Shown here piece by piece: positions 6,699 through 30,366 of a stretch of DNA of 64,000 bases. The translations under genes were made by a program, and so were the position numbers. The notes below the pieces were generated by a model. That model was given only the letters and a program-made list of their open reading frames with translations. It did not search any database and was not told the DNA's origin. How positions within the stretch are numbered: the first letter of the stretch is position 1; each line of letters opens with the position of its first letter. This stretch comes from Allobosea sp. GTDB taxonomy: Bacteria; Pseudomonadota; Alphaproteobacteria; Rhizobiales; Beijerinckiaceae. The stretch spans positions 1 through 64,000 of the forward strand of contig NZ_JAUYTP010000029.1 in NCBI RefSeq assembly GCF_030695125.1. The letters run 5' to 3'.

Positions 6699-7733
6699 TC
6701 AGGCCGCCTTCTGCCGCGGCTGGATCAGCTTGCGGTTGATCAGCACCTCGGCGATCTGCACCGCGTTCAGCGCCGCGCCCTTGCGCAGGTTGTCGGATAC
6801 GCACCAGAAGGCCAAGCCGTTCTCGACGGTGGCATCCTCGCGGATGCGGGAGATGTAGGTCGCGTCCTCGCCGGCCGCCTCATGCGGCGTGGCGTAGCCA
6901 CCGGGCTCGTGCTTGTCGATCACGAGGATGCCCGGCGCCGCGCGCAGCACCTCGCGCGCCTCGTCGGCGGTCACCGGCTTCTCGCATTCGATGTTGACGC
7001 TCTCGGAATGGCCGATGAACACCGGCACGCGCACGCAGGTCGCGGTCAGCTTGATCTTCGGGTCGAGGATCTTCTTGGTCTCGACCATCATCTTCCACTC
7101 TTCCTTGGTGAAGCCGTCCTCCATGAAGACGTCGATCTGCGGGATGAGGTTGAAGGAGATGCGGGCGGGGAACTTCTTGGTCACGACCTCGCCGGCCGAG
7201 AACACGGCGCGCGTCTGGTTGAAGAGCTCGTCCATGCCCTCCTTGCCGGCGCCGGAGACCGACTGGTAGGTCGAGACGACGACGCGCTTGACGACATACT
7301 TGTCATGCAGCGGCTTCAGCGCCACGACGAGCTGCGCGGTCGAGCAGTTCGGATTGGCGATGATGTTCATCTTGCTGAAGCCGGCCACCGCCGCCGCGTT
7401 CACCTCCGGCACGATCAGCGGCACGTCGGGATGCATGCGCCAGGCCGAGGAATTGTCGATCACGACGCAGCCCTGCTGGCCGATCTTGGGCGACCAAACC
7501 TTCGAGATCTCGCCGCCTGCCGACATCAGGCAGATATCGGTGTCGGAGAAGTCGTAATGCTCGAGCGACTTGCACTTCAGCGTCCTGTCGCCGAACGAAA
7601 CCTCCGTCCCGATCGAGCGCGAGGAGGCCAGCGCCACGACCTCGCTGACCGGGAAGGCCCGCTCGGCCAGGATGTCCAGCATCTCGCGGCCCACATTACC
7701 CGTGGCGCCGACGATCGCGACCTTGAAGCTCAT
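6699..7733 (-). CDS. asd: aspartate-semialdehyde dehydrogenase
   Basis: Catalyses NADPH-dependent reduction of aspartyl phosphate to aspartate semialdehyde, the branch point to lysine/diaminopimelate, threonine and methionine. At 344 aa from the chosen ATG it has the usual length. The dinucleotide motif GATGNVG is at residues 9-15, and the active-site Cys130 lies in NPNCSTAQ. The start at 7733 (MSFKVAIVGATG) is preferred over an ATG 48 bp upstream because AAGGAA sits correctly before it and the upstream residues do not fit the fold. The gene is single, with a long upstream gap and a GC hairpin downstream. Confidence 0.97.
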   Translation of the reverse strand: MSFKVAIVGATGNVGREMLDILAERAFPVSEVVALASSRSIGTEVSFGDRTLKCKSLEHYDFSDTDICLMSAGGEISKVWSPKIGQQGCVVIDNSSAWRMHPDVPLIVPEVNAAAVAGFSKMNIIANPNCSTAQLVVALKPLHDKYVVKRVVVSTYQSVSGAGKEGMDELFNQTRAVFSAGEVVTKKFPARISFNLIPQIDVFMEDGFTKEEWKMMVETKKILDPKIKLTATCVRVPVFIGHSESVNIECEKPVTADEAREVLRAAPGILVIDKHEPGGYATPHEAAGEDATYISRIREDATVENGLAFWCVSDNLRKGAALNAVQIAEVLINRKLIQPRQKAA

Positions 7734-20122: not shown

Positions 20123-20929
20123 ATGAAACTCAACGTGGCGGCGACGCTGCTCTATGGCTTCGACAGCGACACGCAGGTGATCGCGGCGATCGAGGCGGCG
20201 CGCTCCGCCGACCAGACCATCATCTCCGAGAGCCTGGAGATCTCGTCCGGCGCCCAGCTGGTGCGCGACCAGGACCCGGTCACCGGCGAGCGGCGCTTTC
20301 GCACTGCGCTCTCGGGCCAGGTCGAGATCAGCTACCGGGCGCTCGTCGACAATGGCGAGCGGGCGCCTCTGACGGCCCATGCCCGCCAGCATGACTGGTC
20401 GGAGCTGCCGCAGGACGCCCTGCCCTATCTGCTGCCGAGCCGGTTCTCGCCCTCCGACGAATTCATGCGCTTCGCCCAGCGCGAATTCTGCGCGATCGAA
20501 GGCGGCGGCGCGCGCATCCTCGCCGTGCTCGACTGGCTGCACGAGCATCTCGACTATGTTCATGGCGTCAGCCACGCCCAGACCACCGCCGAGCAGACCT
20601 TCATCGACCGCGCCGGGGTCTGCCGCGATTTCACCCATCTCGGCATCGCGCTGACGCGGGCGCTGAATATCCCCGCGCGCGCGGTCAGCGCCTATGCGCT
20701 CGACCTCGACCCGCCGGATTTCCACGCCATCTTCGAGGTCTATCTCGACGGCCGCTGGTGGCTGGTCGATCCGACAAGACTCGCGCCCGTCGAGGGGATG
20801 GTGCGGATCGCCAGCGGCCGCGACGCCGCCGACATCGCCTTCCTGACCAGCCAGTTCAACTGCCAGTGCCTCGCCCAGACGATCACCGTCACACGCGCGG
20901 ACGACAACGCCGGACTGCAGGCGGCCTGA
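20123..20929 (+). CDS. transglutaminase-like cysteine peptidase family protein
   Basis: Cytoplasmic papain-fold protein of 268 aa with an N-terminal beta domain (about 1-75) and a transglutaminase core. The catalytic triad is visible as Cys167 (AGVCRDFTH), His201 (PPDFHAIFE) and Asp216 (WLVDPTRLAP). There is no signal peptide. Bacterial members of this type usually act as peptidases or peptide ligases rather than protein crosslinkers; the substrate is unknown. Similar genes often stand near alpha-E/circularly permuted ATP-grasp genes, which are absent here, so it appears to act alone. A bidirectional hairpin terminator follows 12 bp after the stop. Confidence 0.9.
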   Translation: MKLNVAATLLYGFDSDTQVIAAIEAARSADQTIISESLEISSGAQLVRDQDPVTGERRFRTALSGQVEISYRALVDNGERAPLTAHARQHDWSELPQDALPYLLPSRFSPSDEFMRFAQREFCAIEGGGARILAVLDWLHEHLDYVHGVSHAQTTAEQTFIDRAGVCRDFTHLGIALTRALNIPARAVSAYALDLDPPDFHAIFEVYLDGRWWLVDPTRLAPVEGMVRIASGRDAADIAFLTSQFNCQCLAQTITVTRADDNAGLQAA

Positions 20930-20941
20930 TCAAAGCAAAGA

Positions 20942-20968
20942 CCCCGCGGCTCGCAACGAGCCACGGGG
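20942..20968. terminator. bidirectional terminator hairpin
   Basis: CCCCGCGGCTCG and CGAGCCACGGGG pair with one mismatch around a CAA loop. In the minus direction the stem is followed by TCTTTGCTTT, a usable U tract; in the plus direction by TTAAAG. It serves the convergent transglutaminase gene and the Asp/Arg-block gene. Confidence 0.75.
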
Positions 20969-20993
20969 TTAAAGCATTCACGATCGGCCGACC

Positions 20994-21236
20994 TCAATCG
21001 TCGTCGTCATCGTCATCCCGCCGACGCGAGCGCCGTCGGCGCGAACCGCGGTCATCATCATCATCGTCGTCGTCATCTCGCCGCCTGCGACGGGAGCGCC
21101 GGCCCCGCCGGTCGTCGTCATCATCATCGTCATCCGCCCGCGCCGTCGTCGCGGCGGCTCCGAATGCGGCCACGATCGGCAACCCCAGCAAGATCCGCAA
21201 CAGGTTGCGGCGGCTTTGATCCGCATCGAATGTCAT
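20994..21236 (-). CDS. exported Asp/Arg block-polyampholyte protein with Tat-like signal
   Basis: The 80-aa product starts MTFDADQSRRNLLRILLGLP; AGGAG at 6 bp before this ATG fixes the start. The N-terminus has a twin-Arg motif (SRRNLL), a hydrophobic core and an AxA-type cleavage site (ATTARA) near residue 34. The predicted mature part, about 46 residues, consists only of Asp (24), Arg (17), Ser (3) and Gly (2). It is built as five blocks: 8 Asp, an 11-residue Arg block, 9 Asp, a second 11-residue Arg block, and 7 Asp. Asp codons mix GAT and GAC, so this is not a simple trinucleotide slippage product. No known domain. Possible roles (cation or mineral binding, envelope condensate) are speculation. 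Confidence 0.72.
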   Translation of the reverse strand: MTFDADQSRRNLLRILLGLPIVAAFGAAATTARADDDDDDDDRRGRRSRRRRRDDDDDDDDDRGSRRRRSRRRDDDDDDD

Positions 21237-21375
21237 ATCGACTCCTGGAAGGCGGCCCGGATAGACAATCACTCCGCGCCTCGATCCCGATCCTCGAGCG
21301 AGGCATCGGCGAGCACGAAACGCTCAAGGCGGCTCGATTATTCCCTCGACCGGACATCACGGATGCGCGAGGGCG

Positions 21376-22230
21376 TCAGGCGACGGCAGCGCGCCGGGCC
21401 GCACGGCGGAGGTTGAGACCCAGCGCCGCCAGAAAGAAGACGGCCTGGACCACGACGATGCAGGGGCCTGTCGCGCCGTCGAGATGGAAGCTCAGGATGG
21501 TGCCGAGCACGCTCGACAGGGTCGCGGCTACGACCGCTACCGCCAGCATCGCATCGAAGCGCCGCGTCGTCAGGAAGCCGATGGCGCCCGGCGCGATCAG
21601 CATGGCGACGACGAGGATGATGCCGACCGCCTTCAGCGCCGCGACGATCGTCAGCGCGAGCAGCATCAACAGGCCGAAATTCAGCCAGCGCACCGGCAGG
21701 CCGATCGCACGGGCATGGGCCGGATCGAAGGCGACCAGCAGGAAGTCGCGGCGTTTCGCCAGCATGATGGCGATGGTCGGCACGGCGATGGCGGCCGTCT
21801 CGGCGATGTCGGCCCAGCGCACGCCGAGCATGTTGCCGAACAGGATGTGGAGCAGGTGCTGGTCGCTCTCGACCTTGACGAACATCACGAGGCCGAGCGC
21901 GAACATGCCGGAGAAGACGATGCCCATCACCGTGTCCTCCTTCACCCGGCTGTTCTCCTTGAGATAGCCGATGGCGAGCGAACAGCTCAGGCCGGCGACG
22001 AAGGCTCCGGCCGCCAGGGGCAGACCCAGGATCTGCGCCAGCACGATGCCGGGGAGGACGGCATGGGAGACCGCGTCCCCCATCAGCGACCAGCCCTTCA
22101 GGATCAGGAAGCAGGAGAGGACGGCGCAGACGACGCCGACGATGACCGCCACGACGAGGCCGCGCTGCATGAACTCGTGCGTCAGCGGCGCGATCAGCCA
22201 GGAATGGAGCGAGGCTTCGATCAGGCTCAT
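21376..22230 (-). CDS. sitD: manganese/iron ABC transporter permease SitD
   Basis: Second membrane subunit of the SitABCD metal importer (ABC-3 family), 284 aa with about eight helices. Typical segments are [25 protein letters not shown] near residues 42-66 and VVAMLIAPGAIGFL near 210. The protein is closely similar in layout to SitC, as expected for a heteromeric channel. The ATG at 22230 overlaps the sitC stop (ATGA); the longer open frame upstream lies inside sitC and is not used. It is the last gene of sitABCD. Manganese is favoured over zinc because the operon is divergent from a Mur-type gene and the binding protein lacks a His-rich loop. Confidence 0.93.
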   Translation of the reverse strand: MSLIEASLHSWLIAPLTHEFMQRGLVVAVIVGVVCAVLSCFLILKGWSLMGDAVSHAVLPGIVLAQILGLPLAAGAFVAGLSCSLAIGYLKENSRVKEDTVMGIVFSGMFALGLVMFVKVESDQHLLHILFGNMLGVRWADIAETAAIAVPTIAIMLAKRRDFLLVAFDPAHARAIGLPVRWLNFGLLMLLALTIVAALKAVGIILVVAMLIAPGAIGFLTTRRFDAMLAVAVVAATLSSVLGTILSFHLDGATGPCIVVVQAVFFLAALGLNLRRAARRAAVA

Positions 22231-23087
22231 GGCGCCGTTTCCGACATGGCCCGGGCCGCCCGCGCCGCGGCGAGGCGGCCATGCTTGGGCGCGAAGACGA
22301 AGGCGAGGAGGAACAGGATCGTCTGGAACACGACGATCAGCCCGCCCGTCGAGCCGTCCAAGAAATAGCTGGCATAGGCGCCGGCCGCGCTGGTGACGAC
22401 GCCGAGCGCCACCGCGAGACAGATCAGCCGGCCGAAGCGGTCGCAGAGCAGATAGGCGGTGGCGCCCGGCGTGATCACCATCGCGATCACCAGCACGGCG
22501 CCGACCGTCTGCAGCGCCGCCACCGTGCAGGCGCTGAGCAGGACGAAGAACAGGATCTTCATCCGCGTCGGCGAAAGGCCGACCGCGCGCGCCTGGTTCT
22601 CGTCGAAGAAGACCAGCATCAGGTCGCGCCAGCGCGCGATCAGGACGACGAGCGAGACGGCGGCGATGATCGCGACCTGGACCACGTCCTCGTCCGAAAT
22701 GCCGAGGATGTTGCCGAGCACGATCGACTGGACGTTCACCGAGGTCGGGTTGATCGAGACGATCAGCAGCCCCGCCGCGAAGAAGGTGGTGAAGACGATG
22801 CCGATGACGGCGTCCTCGCGTAGCTGCGTGCGCACCCGCACCAGCGCCATGGCGAGCGCCGCCAGCATGCCGGAGAAGAAGGCGCCGGCGGCATAGGGCA
22901 CCTTGAGCAGATAGGCGAGCGCGACGCCCGGCACGATCGCATGGGCCAGTGCGTCGCCCATCAGCGACCAGCCCTTCAGCATCAGGAAGCAGGACAGGAA
23001 GGCGCAGACCCCGCCGACCAGCGCCGAAACCCAGATCGCCCGGACCATGTACTGATAGCCGAAGGGTTCCAGCAGAAGGTCGATCAC
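22227..23087 (-). CDS. sitC: manganese/iron ABC transporter permease SitC
   Basis: First membrane subunit of the Sit importer, 286 aa, about eight helices. Conserved ABC-3 features are [26 protein letters not shown] and [15 protein letters not shown]. It begins with GTG at 23087, which overlaps the sitB stop as GTGA, and ends by overlapping the sitD start, so the whole operon is translationally coupled. With SitD it forms the pore driven by two SitB subunits. The dual-permease arrangement distinguishes Sit systems from single-permease Mnt or Znu systems. Confidence 0.93.
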
Positions 23088-23977
23088 GGCGCGCGATCCT
23101 TTGCCGTGTCTGACGCCTCGCTGTTGGTCTGTCCGCCCGCGACGCGCTCGCTGTCGCGCTTGCCGTAGAGCACCAGCGGGCGCTCGTCGTCGGTGATGAC
23201 GGTGACGCGCCGGTCGTCCTCGTCGTCATGGAGATCGGCGCCGCCGAGGCGGAAATGCCGCAGCGCGCCCCCAAAAGCGCGCTGGAGATTGTCATGGGTG
23301 AAGGTCGTCGCGGTCGGCCCGGCCGCCAGCACCGTCTTGTTGATGATCACGACCTGGTCGCAGAAATCCGGGATCGAGCCGAGATTATGGGTCGAGACCA
23401 GCATCAGCCGGCCCTCGTCGCGCAATTCGCGCATCAGTCCAACGATCGCATCCTCGGTCTTGACGTCGACGCCGGTGAAGGGCTCGTCGAGCAGGATGAC
23501 CTGCCCGCCCTGCGCCAGCGCGCGCGCCAGGAAGACGCGCTTGCGCTGCCCGCCGGACAATTCGCCGATCTGGCGGGTGCGGAATTCCAGCATGTTGACG
23601 CGCGCGAGCGCCTGTTCGACCGCCTCGCGATCCGCCTGCCGCGCGATCCGCAGGAAGCCCATATGGCCATAGCGACCCATCATCACCACGTCCTCGACCA
23701 GCACCGGGAAGGTCCAGTCGACCTCCTCGGCCTGCGGCACATAGGCGACGAGCCCGCGCTTCAGAGCCTGGCCCACGGGGAGCCCGGCGATCGAGACCGA
23801 CCCGCGCGCCGGCTTGAGGAAACCCATCAGCGTCTTGAACAGCGTCGATTTGCCCGAGCCGTTGATGCCGACGAGCGCGCAGATCGTGCCGGCCCCGAGG
23901 CTGAAGGAAGCGTCGGTCACCGCGGTGACGCCATTGGTGTAGCGCACGGTGACGCCCTCGACCGTAATCGAGGGCAT
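23084..23977 (-). CDS. sitB: manganese/iron ABC transporter ATP-binding protein SitB
   Basis: ATPase subunit of 297 aa. Walker A is GINGSGKST (about residues 37-45), the signature is [15 protein letters not shown], and Walker B is [13 protein letters not shown] switch His follows in STHN. An unusual C-terminal tail of about 50 residues ([18 protein letters not shown] and onward, acidic then polar) exceeds the usual 240-260 aa core and has no known role. The ATG at 23977 is used here; an in-frame TTG at 24010 overlapping the sitA stop as TTGA is a real alternative given how common such overlaps are in this operon. Confidence 0.92.
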
Positions 23978-24006
23978 GCCCTCACGCAGAGCGGTAGCCG
24001 GCGCGC

Positions 24007-24918
24007 TCAATGGCCGAAACCCGTGGCGACTGTCCCGACCGTGGTTTCGAGCAGCTTGAGATAGGTCGGCACCGGCCCACCATCGGCAGACAGCGAGTCG
24101 ACATAGAGCACGCCGCCATAGCGGGCGCCGGTCTCGCGCGCGACCTGCCGGGCCGCCTTGTCGGAAATCGTGCTTTCGCTGAACACGGTCGGGATCTTGT
24201 TCTTCCTCACCAGGTCGATCAAGCGCCGCACCTGCTGCGGCGTGCCCTGCTGGTCGGCATTGATCGGCCAGAGATAGGCCTCGCGCCAACCATAGTCACG
24301 GGCGAGATAGGAAAAGGCCCCCTCGCTGGTGACGAGCCAGCGCTGCGCGGCCGGCACCTTGTCGAGCCGCGCCCGCAGCGGCGCATCGACGGCCTTGATT
24401 TTGTCGGCGTAGGCCTTCGCATTGGCAGCGTAGATCTCGGCCCGCGCGGGATCGGCCGCGGCCAGCGCCTTGCGGATGTTCTCGACATAGATCAGCGCAT
24501 TGCTGGTCGACATCCAGGCGTGCGGATTGGGCCGGCCCTGATAGGGCCCGTCCGTGATGCCCATCGGCTCGACGCCTTCGCTCACCACGGCGCTGCGGAC
24601 GTTCTTCACATTGTCGAAGAAGCGCTCGAACCAGCGCTCGAGATTGAGCCCGTTCCAGAGCACGAGATCGGCCGATTGCGCCTTCACCACGTCGAGCGGC
24701 GTCGGCTGGTAGTCGTGGATCTCGGCGCCGGGCTTGGTGATCGACTCGACGATGGCGGCATCGCCCGCGACGTTCTGCGCGATGTCCTGGATCACCGTGA
24801 AGGTGGTGACGACGCGCAGCTTCTTGTCCTGCGCGAGGGCCGCGCCGGACCCAAGCGCCAACCCGCCCGTCAGCAGGCCCGTGGCGCTCCATTTCATGAA
24901 AGATCGACGCGATCGCAT
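24007..24918 (-). CDS. sitA: periplasmic manganese/iron-binding protein SitA with Tat signal
   Basis: Cluster A-I (ZnuA/PsaA-type) metal-binding protein, 303 aa. The N-terminus [16 protein letters not shown] contains S-R-R-S-F-M-K, a full twin-arginine consensus, followed by a signal ending near ALAQ. Likely metal ligands are His in [10 protein letters not shown], His in NPHAWMS, Glu in FSESTISDK and Asp in YVDSLS. That is the His-His-Glu-Asp set of Mn/Fe binders, without the His-rich loop of zinc binders. A GGGAG ribosome site 6 bp upstream selects the ATG at 24918. It is first in sitABCD, with two inverted-repeat Mur boxes in its promoter. Confidence 0.93.
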
Positions 24919-24957: not shown

Positions 24958-24974
24958 TTGCAACTCACTTGCAT
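24958..24974. promoter_or_regulatory. Mur-box-like site 1 (sitA proximal)
   Basis: TTGCAACTCACTTGCAT: two TTGCA half-sites 5 bp apart, 40 bp upstream of the sitA ATG. It resembles the Mur-responsive sequences reported before rhizobial sitABCD, which also occur as two copies. Confidence 0.65.
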
Positions 24975-24986
24975 TTGTCAACGCTG

Positions 24987-25003
24987 TTGCAATCTATTTG
25001 CAA
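24987..25003. promoter_or_regulatory. Mur-box-like site 2 (mur proximal)
   Basis: TTGCAATCTATTTGCAA is an inverted repeat of TTGCAA with a 5-bp spacer. It lies between sitA and the divergent mur gene, 46 bp from the mur ATG. Site centres are 29 bp apart. Confidence 0.7.
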
Positions 25004-25048: not shown

Positions 25049-25498
25049 ATGACAGGAATCGAACAGCGCGTGGCCGGCTTCGAGGGCCAGCTCCGCGGCG
25101 CCGGGCTGCGGATGACGCAGCAGCGCCGGCTGATCCTGCGCGTGCTGGCCGAAGCCGACGACCACCCCGACGCCAAGGGCATCTTCACCCGCGCCTTCGC
25201 GCATGATCCGACGCTTTCGCTCTCGACCGTCTATCGCACCATGAAGGTTCTGGAGACGCAAGGCGCGATCGAGCGCCACGCCTTCGAGGATGGCGTCTCC
25301 CGCTATGAACATGCGGACCAGGAGCATCACGATCACCTGATCGACATCGAAACCGGTGACGTGATCGAGTTCTCCTCCGACGCGATCGAGGAACTGCAGC
25401 GCCGCATCGCCGCCGAACTCGGCTACGAGCTCGTCCGCCACCGGCTCGAGCTGTACGGGCGCAAGAAGCGGCCGGGCGCGCGGGGGAAGAAGACTTAG
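25049..25498 (+). CDS. mur: Fur-family manganese uptake regulator Mur
   Basis: Metal-responsive repressor of 149 aa. The winged-helix domain spans about residues 8-90, with GLRMTQQRRLILRVL and LSLSTVYRTMKVLE (recognition helix). The metal-sensing hinge has EHHDHLIDIETGDVIEF. The structural Cys pairs of enterobacterial Fur are missing, as in the rhizobial Fur orthologues that were renamed Mur because they respond to Mn and repress sitABCD. It is divergent from sitABCD with two palindromic boxes in the 130-bp gap. In this lineage Irr, encoded at 1.1-1.6 kb, handles iron, which fits Mur controlling Mn. Confidence 0.9.
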   Translation: MTGIEQRVAGFEGQLRGAGLRMTQQRRLILRVLAEADDHPDAKGIFTRAFAHDPTLSLSTVYRTMKVLETQGAIERHAFEDGVSRYEHADQEHHDHLIDIETGDVIEFSSDAIEELQRRIAAELGYELVRHRLELYGRKKRPGARGKKT

Positions 25499-29880: not shown

Positions 29881-30366
29881 CCTCTTGTCGTCGGGGGCCA
29901 TCATCCGTATATGCCCTCTACCCAATTCGCACGTGCCTGTGGCCGCGTGTCAGTCGGTGGGCATCCGGACAAGAGGCCGGACAGCCGCCAGGTGTTGGAG
30001 ACGGATGGAGGGGGATGGATATCCCCTCAAATCACGCTCCCGGTTCCCTTCTCCAGGGAACTGTCACCGAACAGCGACTGGCAGCCGGAGGCGAAACCGG
30101 CGAACCCCGAATCTCCACGGGGGACGCAGCTTAAAGCAACGACGGAACGGGCTTTTTTTGGTCTCGCTGGTCCTCCAAAGACCAGCACCGAAGAGGCTTG
30201 TCCTTCATTGCCGGGCGTGCGGGGTCTCCCCAAGCGACGGTTATCAGAGTCCGGACGTTTCGTTCGGTGGCCCGCGGCGTTTCCAACGCGCTGTGGCTCG
30301 CCTGATCGACTCAAGCCGGCTTCATGTCGCATCGGCGCCGCCAGCGCCGTAAGGGAGACGCGTCTC
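29881..30366 (+). ncRNA. long structured leader before ornithine decarboxylase (speF RNA motif candidate)
   Basis: About 490 bp without a supported gene precede speF. It has distant complementary arms CCTCTTGTC (29881-29889) and GACAAGAGG (29968-29976). After them come hairpins at 30008-30028 (GGGGAT/ATCCCC), 30041-30063 (CGGTTCCCT/AGGGAACTG), 30084-30101 (GCCGG/CCGGC), 30105-30122 (CCCCG/CGGGG) and 30166-30186 (GCTGGTC/GACCAGC). A run of seven T is at 30153-30159. The alphaproteobacterial speF cis-regulatory RNA motif is known upstream of this same gene type. I recognise it by context and structure, not by a covariance-model match. Confidence 0.55.

Follow-up and report, generated by a model that had tools for sequence, protein, structure and literature searches.

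ZinT and the flexible loop of ZnuA work through zinc and histidine chemistry. Both are named in a paper on AztD, which is described there as a periplasmic zinc protein of the aztABCD operon of Paracoccus denitrificans (PMC6689063). MntS of Escherichia coli is described as a manganese-repressed protein of 42 amino acids whose proposed action is an intracellular block of the exporter MntP (PMC4361602). Here we describe a gene of Bosea genomes that lies beside a predicted manganese/iron importer and encodes a short, probably exported chain of alternating Asp and Arg blocks. A literature search for an exported Asp/Arg block protein found no paper.

The block protein is encoded on the minus strand of the window (the whole 64,000-nucleotide stretch of DNA analysed) by an open reading frame of 80 residues with a TGA stop (20994-21236), which reads MTFDADQSRRNLLRILLGLPIVAAFGAAATTARA followed by D8 RRGRRSRRRRR D9 RGSRRRRSRRR D7. 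A predicted twin-arginine-type signal peptide (residues 1-34, SRRNLLR ... ARA; 21135..21236) precedes a predicted mature chain (20997..21134) of 46 amino acids, namely 24 Asp, 17 Arg, 3 Ser and 2 Gly and no His, arranged as D8, an Arg-rich block of 11, D9, a second Arg-rich block of 11 and D7. The initial annotation had reported exactly this restricted composition in five charge blocks, together with a good ribosome-binding site, and both descriptions agree with the reading frame, which is preceded by AGGAG 5 nt ahead of the ATG (21242..21246, minus strand). It had also claimed a bidirectional terminator, which the scan of 20900-21500 does not support: an intrinsic-terminator-like hairpin of 13 pairs with a T-rich tail lies 3' of the gene (20941..20969) on the gene's own strand only, with none listed on the plus strand. 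Searches of Pfam and NCBIfam returned no family in either, in line with the earlier statement that no described family has this composition.

Signal positions R9, R10, L13, L16, L19 and P20 are unchanged in all 17 aligned sequences, and the RR pair is invariant in both alignments of matches picked by likeness (17/17 in A1, 20/20 in A2). The predicted Tat motif, the hydrophobic stretch and an AxA-type site called by eye fit together, which supports the earlier call of a twin-arginine-type signal and suggests that the block protein is exported by Tat and cleaved at ARA. A title in the reference list of PMC13186574 indicates that Tat can accept small hydrophilic cargo that is unstructured. A single-sequence AlphaFold2 model (mean pLDDT 61; such models weigh little) has a single helix, within the signal (residues 5-18), and leaves the mature part free of secondary structure, as would be expected for a disordered chain.

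The initial annotation, right on the protein itself, mentioned neither its strand nor its position after sitABCD. Moving away from the block gene on the same strand, the order is sitD, sitC, sitB and sitA: a sitD-type permease directly upstream (21376..22230; ABC-3, PF00950), a sitC-type permease (22227..23087; ABC-3, PF00950), a sitB-type ATPase (23084..23977, start chosen by eye within ORF 23084-24289) and a sitA-type substrate-binding protein with its own RRSFMK signal (24007..24918; PF01297, start chosen by eye). The ATPase exceeds the cut-off of NF011630 (manganese/iron ABC transporter ATP-binding protein; 419.9 bits against 393), and the permeases and the ZnuA-family binding protein fall below NCBIfam cut-offs. 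Judged by these matches, the neighbours are a SitABCD-type Mn/Fe importer. On the other side, a transglutaminase-like gene converges on the block gene. The scan of 20900-21500 placed terminator-like sites only 3' of the block gene, and detected neither a terminator-like site nor a sigma-70-like promoter in the gap between sitD and the block gene. The block gene is probably co-transcribed with sitABCD; against this, the gap of 79-148 bp has room for a promoter type outside the scan. A hairpin 3' of the block gene was detected by our own terminator scan in 2 of 15 carriers, the window and G004, so that an operon end at the block gene is seen for these two.

A Fur-family regulator gene, a candidate Mur, is divergent from sitA (25049..25498, plus strand; PF01475); it reaches no NCBIfam cut-off, and its scores do not tell Fur from Mur. 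The space between the two genes contains TTGCAATCTATTTGCAA (24987..25003, plus strand), a candidate Mur operator and the only perfect TTGCAA-N5-TTGCAA palindrome in the 5.1-Mb assembly, next to a second copy with one mismatch (24958..24974, plus strand). Four further one-mismatch places occur in the genome, from which G000:C57:7828-7844 (L214 829-845) was examined and those on C32, C44 and C48 were left out. The examined copy is 14 bp upstream of the start chosen for an mntH-type Nramp gene (PF01566), which scores above TIGR01197 (Mn/Fe Nramp) and below the cut-off of the MntH model in a stretch cut by the locus end, and a second Fur-family gene is divergent from it. In Rhizobium leguminosarum, Mur is reported to repress both sitABCD and mntH (PMC5575495); palindromes before sitA and mntH are what a manganese (Mur-type) regulon would predict. 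TTGCAA-N5-TTGCAA is a putative Mur box, through which manganese would repress sitABCD and the block gene by way of the Fur-family regulator. In G034, two one-mismatch copies lie ~2.7 kb upstream of sitD, where sitA is unannotated. Neither TTGCA nor TGCAA occurs within the gap between sitD and the block gene in any of 14 carriers. Elsewhere in the window, Rfam matches place an ar45 sRNA and a speF leader in tandem (29920-30312, plus strand).

Relatives of the block protein are present in 15 of 67 Bosea genomes, the window's included (E <= 0.001), and a sitC/D match in 52 of 67 (E <= 1e-40), 9 of which sit on a long separate branch and may represent another importer. All 15 carriers are among the 52 genomes with a sitC/D match and none is among the 15 without one (Fisher p 0.016, kinship ignored). 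The block gene is the next gene after sitD in 14 of the 15 carriers, starting 79-148 bp behind it, and none of these 14 gaps contains a terminator-like hairpin. A transglutaminase follows in 11 of the 14; no transglutaminase match was detected in the 1.5-2 kb seen in G025, G063 and G017, yet the sitD link is kept there. In the remaining carrier, G004, the block gene lies 2878 bp from sitD and is still convergent with the transglutaminase. The island in between (L066 1025-3741) encodes, by eye, an S8-type protease, a sigma factor and a probable anti-sigma factor, and the N-terminal part of the protease itself has the sequence LADDDDDDDDGGR. In Roseivivax, a protein with an Asp run was seen next to a sigma-factor-like gene (L210 6328-7731).

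The block gene is missing from 37 of the 52 sit-bearing genomes and is therefore accessory. Among these 37 non-carriers, a transglutaminase lies within ~150 bp of sitD in 13, and 23 have no transglutaminase match in the stretch seen. In G007 (L042, first 360 bp after sitD), another small exported-looking ORF fills the space between sitD and the transglutaminase, and in L055 (G084) sitD is split across two frames. Presence on the SitD tree is patchy: the carrier label needs 10 changes, at least 6 of them forced by starred branches, against a mean of 13.3 for shuffled labels, with 11 of 500 shuffles as low. The sequence clades of the block gene track the SitD clades by eye. This agreement fits vertical inheritance with repeated loss; the SitD tree cannot tell gain from loss.

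Where the block gene is present, its product is under strong purifying selection. In clade B (7 genomes, 21 pairs), the mature part has pS of 0.26-0.64 and pN of 0.01-0.09, giving pN/pS of 0.02-0.17; in clade A, which includes the window (4 genomes, 6 pairs), mature pN/pS is 0.09-0.30, values made approximate by indels within the D runs; and the single pair of clade C gives 0.08. G025 and G004 have no close partner and enter none of the 28 pairs computed. Mature pN is lower than signal pN in 19 of 21 clade B pairs, with one tie and one reverse, and slightly higher in 5 of 6 clade A pairs and in clade C's only pair. The mature chain is thus under constraint, though in some clades not a stronger one than the signal. 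Across the 15 carriers, the mature part has 142 GAT to 145 GAC among its Asp codons, compared with 57 to 160 in 11 ordinary genes of the window; mixed codons of this kind show that the D runs are not pure repeats. Selection on the protein and mixed GAT/GAC codons had both been proposed in the initial annotation, and the 28 pairs and 15 carriers uphold them.

The arrangement of charges is likewise far from random. None of 2000 same-composition shuffles reaches the charge segregation of the window's chain, and for every one of the 24 sequences tested, 15 from Bosea carriers and 9 from database relatives (the cut for G063 and G017 kept two signal residues), it is matched by 0 or 1 of 2000 composition-preserving shuffles; net charges of these sequences are -8 to +2. 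The outer D blocks are retained from the 80-residue window form to the 62-residue form of G004 (D4 ... Arg/Gly-rich ... D4). In clade C, E/R repeats take the central position and the chain ends in DYDD, a few other residues stand ahead of the first D run in P0003, P0010, P0012, P0018 and G025, and P0017, P0019 and P0021 are without a C-terminal D run. The block layout is thus conserved among relatives as aligned here, though not strictly. Homologues with a kept layout, which the initial annotation had proposed to look for, are therefore present, and the microsatellite-like length variation it had warned of is not: mature lengths span 43-51 residues in 14 of 15 carriers (25 in G004). The block gene is not a microsatellite. 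That repeat slippage merely keeps a neutral ORF of low complexity open, or that the signal peptide alone matters, is hardly credible: D-run lengths that differ by one or two residues within the window's clade, where 5 of 6 pairs also show slightly more change in the mature part than in the signal, would suit such a view, but it conflicts with pN/pS of 0.02-0.30 across all 28 pairs, with the mixed codons and with the lower mature pN in nearly all pairs of the largest clade.

Beyond Bosea, a database of 5.8 billion proteins yielded 16 relatives with alignment A1 and 16 with A2, overlapping sets (E <= 0.001; best ~7980 candidates scored), all hypothetical or without a name. The genomic context of the remoter relatives P0003, P0010, P0012 and P0015-P0018 lay outside the comparison, and P0012 and P0015 as queries had no match in 397 genomes of the order each. 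Scans of order and family found no true relative among at most 13-14 candidates scored per genome, a weak null. The matches in L011 and L012 were rejected as antisense to ordinary genes, and G110/L085 as a Tat-type protein without D/R blocks; G649/L096 (1492-1740), a weak match that was also set aside, is a small twin-arginine-type protein ending in a His/Arg/Asp tail; its neighbours are a PepSY protein and a response regulator.

A pattern scan of one genome per species over 84,980 species gave at least 116 stretches. Among those listed, 11 are, by reading, exported-looking D/R chains ending in D: four from Bosea, four from Duodenibacillus, one from an Acetobacteraceae (L153), a lipoprotein-like D/R chain of Poribacteria (L115) and L117. 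The last is a Pelistega PepSY protein (6788-7201) whose C-terminal tail reads D8-RRKSRSYAK-D6-RRKSRKSSR-D8. Among the other listed stretches are runs of poly-Asp that lack Arg, RG repeats of Acinetobacter and segments from inside longer proteins. A near-identical version of the pattern, p6, fails to pick up 5 of 15 Bosea carriers. In the Duodenibacillus MAGs, small exported-looking D/R proteins with a D-run C-terminus were seen in L124 (3980-4201, plus strand), L157 (3634-3870, plus strand), L178 and L191; in L124, L157 and L178 the gene lies between a PAP2-like gene (by eye) and a gene for a Tat-signal protein, which in L157 has no Pfam match, and a FeoAB-like gene (by eye) lies ~3 kb from the D/R gene of L178. 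The proteins of these four MAGs and of Acetobacteraceae AT-5844 (L153) resemble the Bosea protein in a short Arg-bearing signal, an A|D or A|E junction, D/R blocks and a C-terminal D run. They differ from it in their signal sequences, and inspection by eye of up to 8 kb around the five genes found no Mn importer beside them. They are likely convergent with the Bosea protein, and the D/R block architecture seems to have had more than one origin among bacteria. The link to Mn/Fe import is seen for Bosea only.

The initial annotation had offered a set of functions too open-ended as a whole, within which metal binding gains from a neighbourhood that points to Mn/Fe import. Runs of Asp bind hard divalent metals weakly and at many sites. 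The reading that we prefer, and hold as possible but short of probable, is that the block protein is a disordered, self-neutralising periplasmic sponge that would loosely hold Mn2+ or Fe2+ for SitA. After export to the periplasm via its twin-arginine-type signal, its three Asp blocks would offer many weak carboxylate sites for such metals. In the empty chain, Arg blocks would pair with Asp blocks, lowering affinity and holding net charge near zero, and the low affinity would allow the tight site of SitA to strip metal from the chain. Metal loading would free the Arg blocks for possible docking onto acidic membrane around the permease. The Asp blocks would in this way act as a charge switch, swapping their Arg partners for metal and then back. 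The wider proposal, that disordered Tat-exported Asp/Arg polyampholytes are a new class of charge-switch sponge for Mn/Fe ABC importers whose architecture arose more than once, is doubtful.

A sponge serving the importer is favoured by a block gene that adjoins sitD in 14 of 15 carriers, also where the far neighbour has changed, and further by the Mn/Fe ATPase, the palindromes before sitA and mntH, the purifying selection and the kept layout. It is weakened by the many importers without a block gene and their patchy spread on the SitD tree, by mature parts that change slightly more than the signal in clade A (5 of 6 pairs) and clade C, by the Duodenibacillus and Acetobacteraceae chains with no Mn importer in view, and by the chain itself, in which 17 of 41 charged residues are metal-repelling Arg where plain poly-Asp would be a better binder. 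Several of these points would suit a general envelope polyampholyte that binds lipopolysaccharide, peptidoglycan or polyphosphate or protects proteins, the slot after sitABCD being a convenient operon end. Patchy presence, the exported-looking block chains of other lineages and the other small exported-looking ORF in the same slot of G007 all speak for it; we nevertheless consider it rather unlikely, since sitD remains the neighbour in all but one Bosea carrier, even next to a changed far neighbour, and the 15 genomes without a sitC/D match have no block gene.

The same genomic and sequence evidence that suggests a sponge could also describe a safety buffer that traps surplus Mn2+ or Fe2+ in the periplasm and limits, rather than feeds, import or Fenton chemistry, a role in which weak multi-site binding may favour capacity over affinity. 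The block gene, however, probably shares a transcript with an importer whose expression manganese would turn off, the opposite of what detoxification calls for, and such a buffer is decidedly unlikely. Mineral binding, also among the functions first listed, loses ground. An Asp-rich chain could resemble the acidic biomineral proteins and act as a scaffold for manganese oxide or another mineral, and one Bosea strain, BIWAKO-01, forms Mn oxide particles (PMC5122683); G065, the putative genome of that strain, has sitD but no match to the family, which leaves a scaffold very improbable.

If the sponge reading is right, a periplasmic function can be inherited as nothing more than a pattern of charges. 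A peptide of 46 residues is quick to synthesise and test, and would provide a natural model for sequence-patterned polyampholytes, which to our knowledge have been studied mainly as synthetic or eukaryotic chains.

Set against the described systems, the block protein resembles MntS as a very small protein accompanying Mn import genes. It is set apart from MntS by description, as MntS is proposed to act inside the cell; we know of no Asp/Arg blocks in MntS. With ZinT and the ZnuA loop it would share the role of an auxiliary ligand that meets the metal ahead of an ABC importer, using carboxylates instead of His, and it has no family match. A further likeness is to AztD, which is encoded with a cluster A-I metal ABC importer, is periplasmic and hands metal to the binding protein; the block gene also adjoins such an importer, and its product is predicted to be periplasmic and would hand metal on. 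AztD differs in having crystal structures and demonstrated zinc transfer, as described in PMC6689063, whereas the block protein is a 46-residue chain with no His and no predicted fold, beside a Mn/Fe importer. Measured against metallochaperones of the AztD and ZinT type, adjacency to importer genes was found, and fold homology with a defined metal site was not. The block protein would thus work like AztD or ZinT if it is a sponge, yet with no homology found, no fold and no His it is a member of neither group. AztD and ZinT are zinc proteins with a fold; the block protein, should the sponge reading hold, would be their fold-free counterpart tied to manganese and iron.
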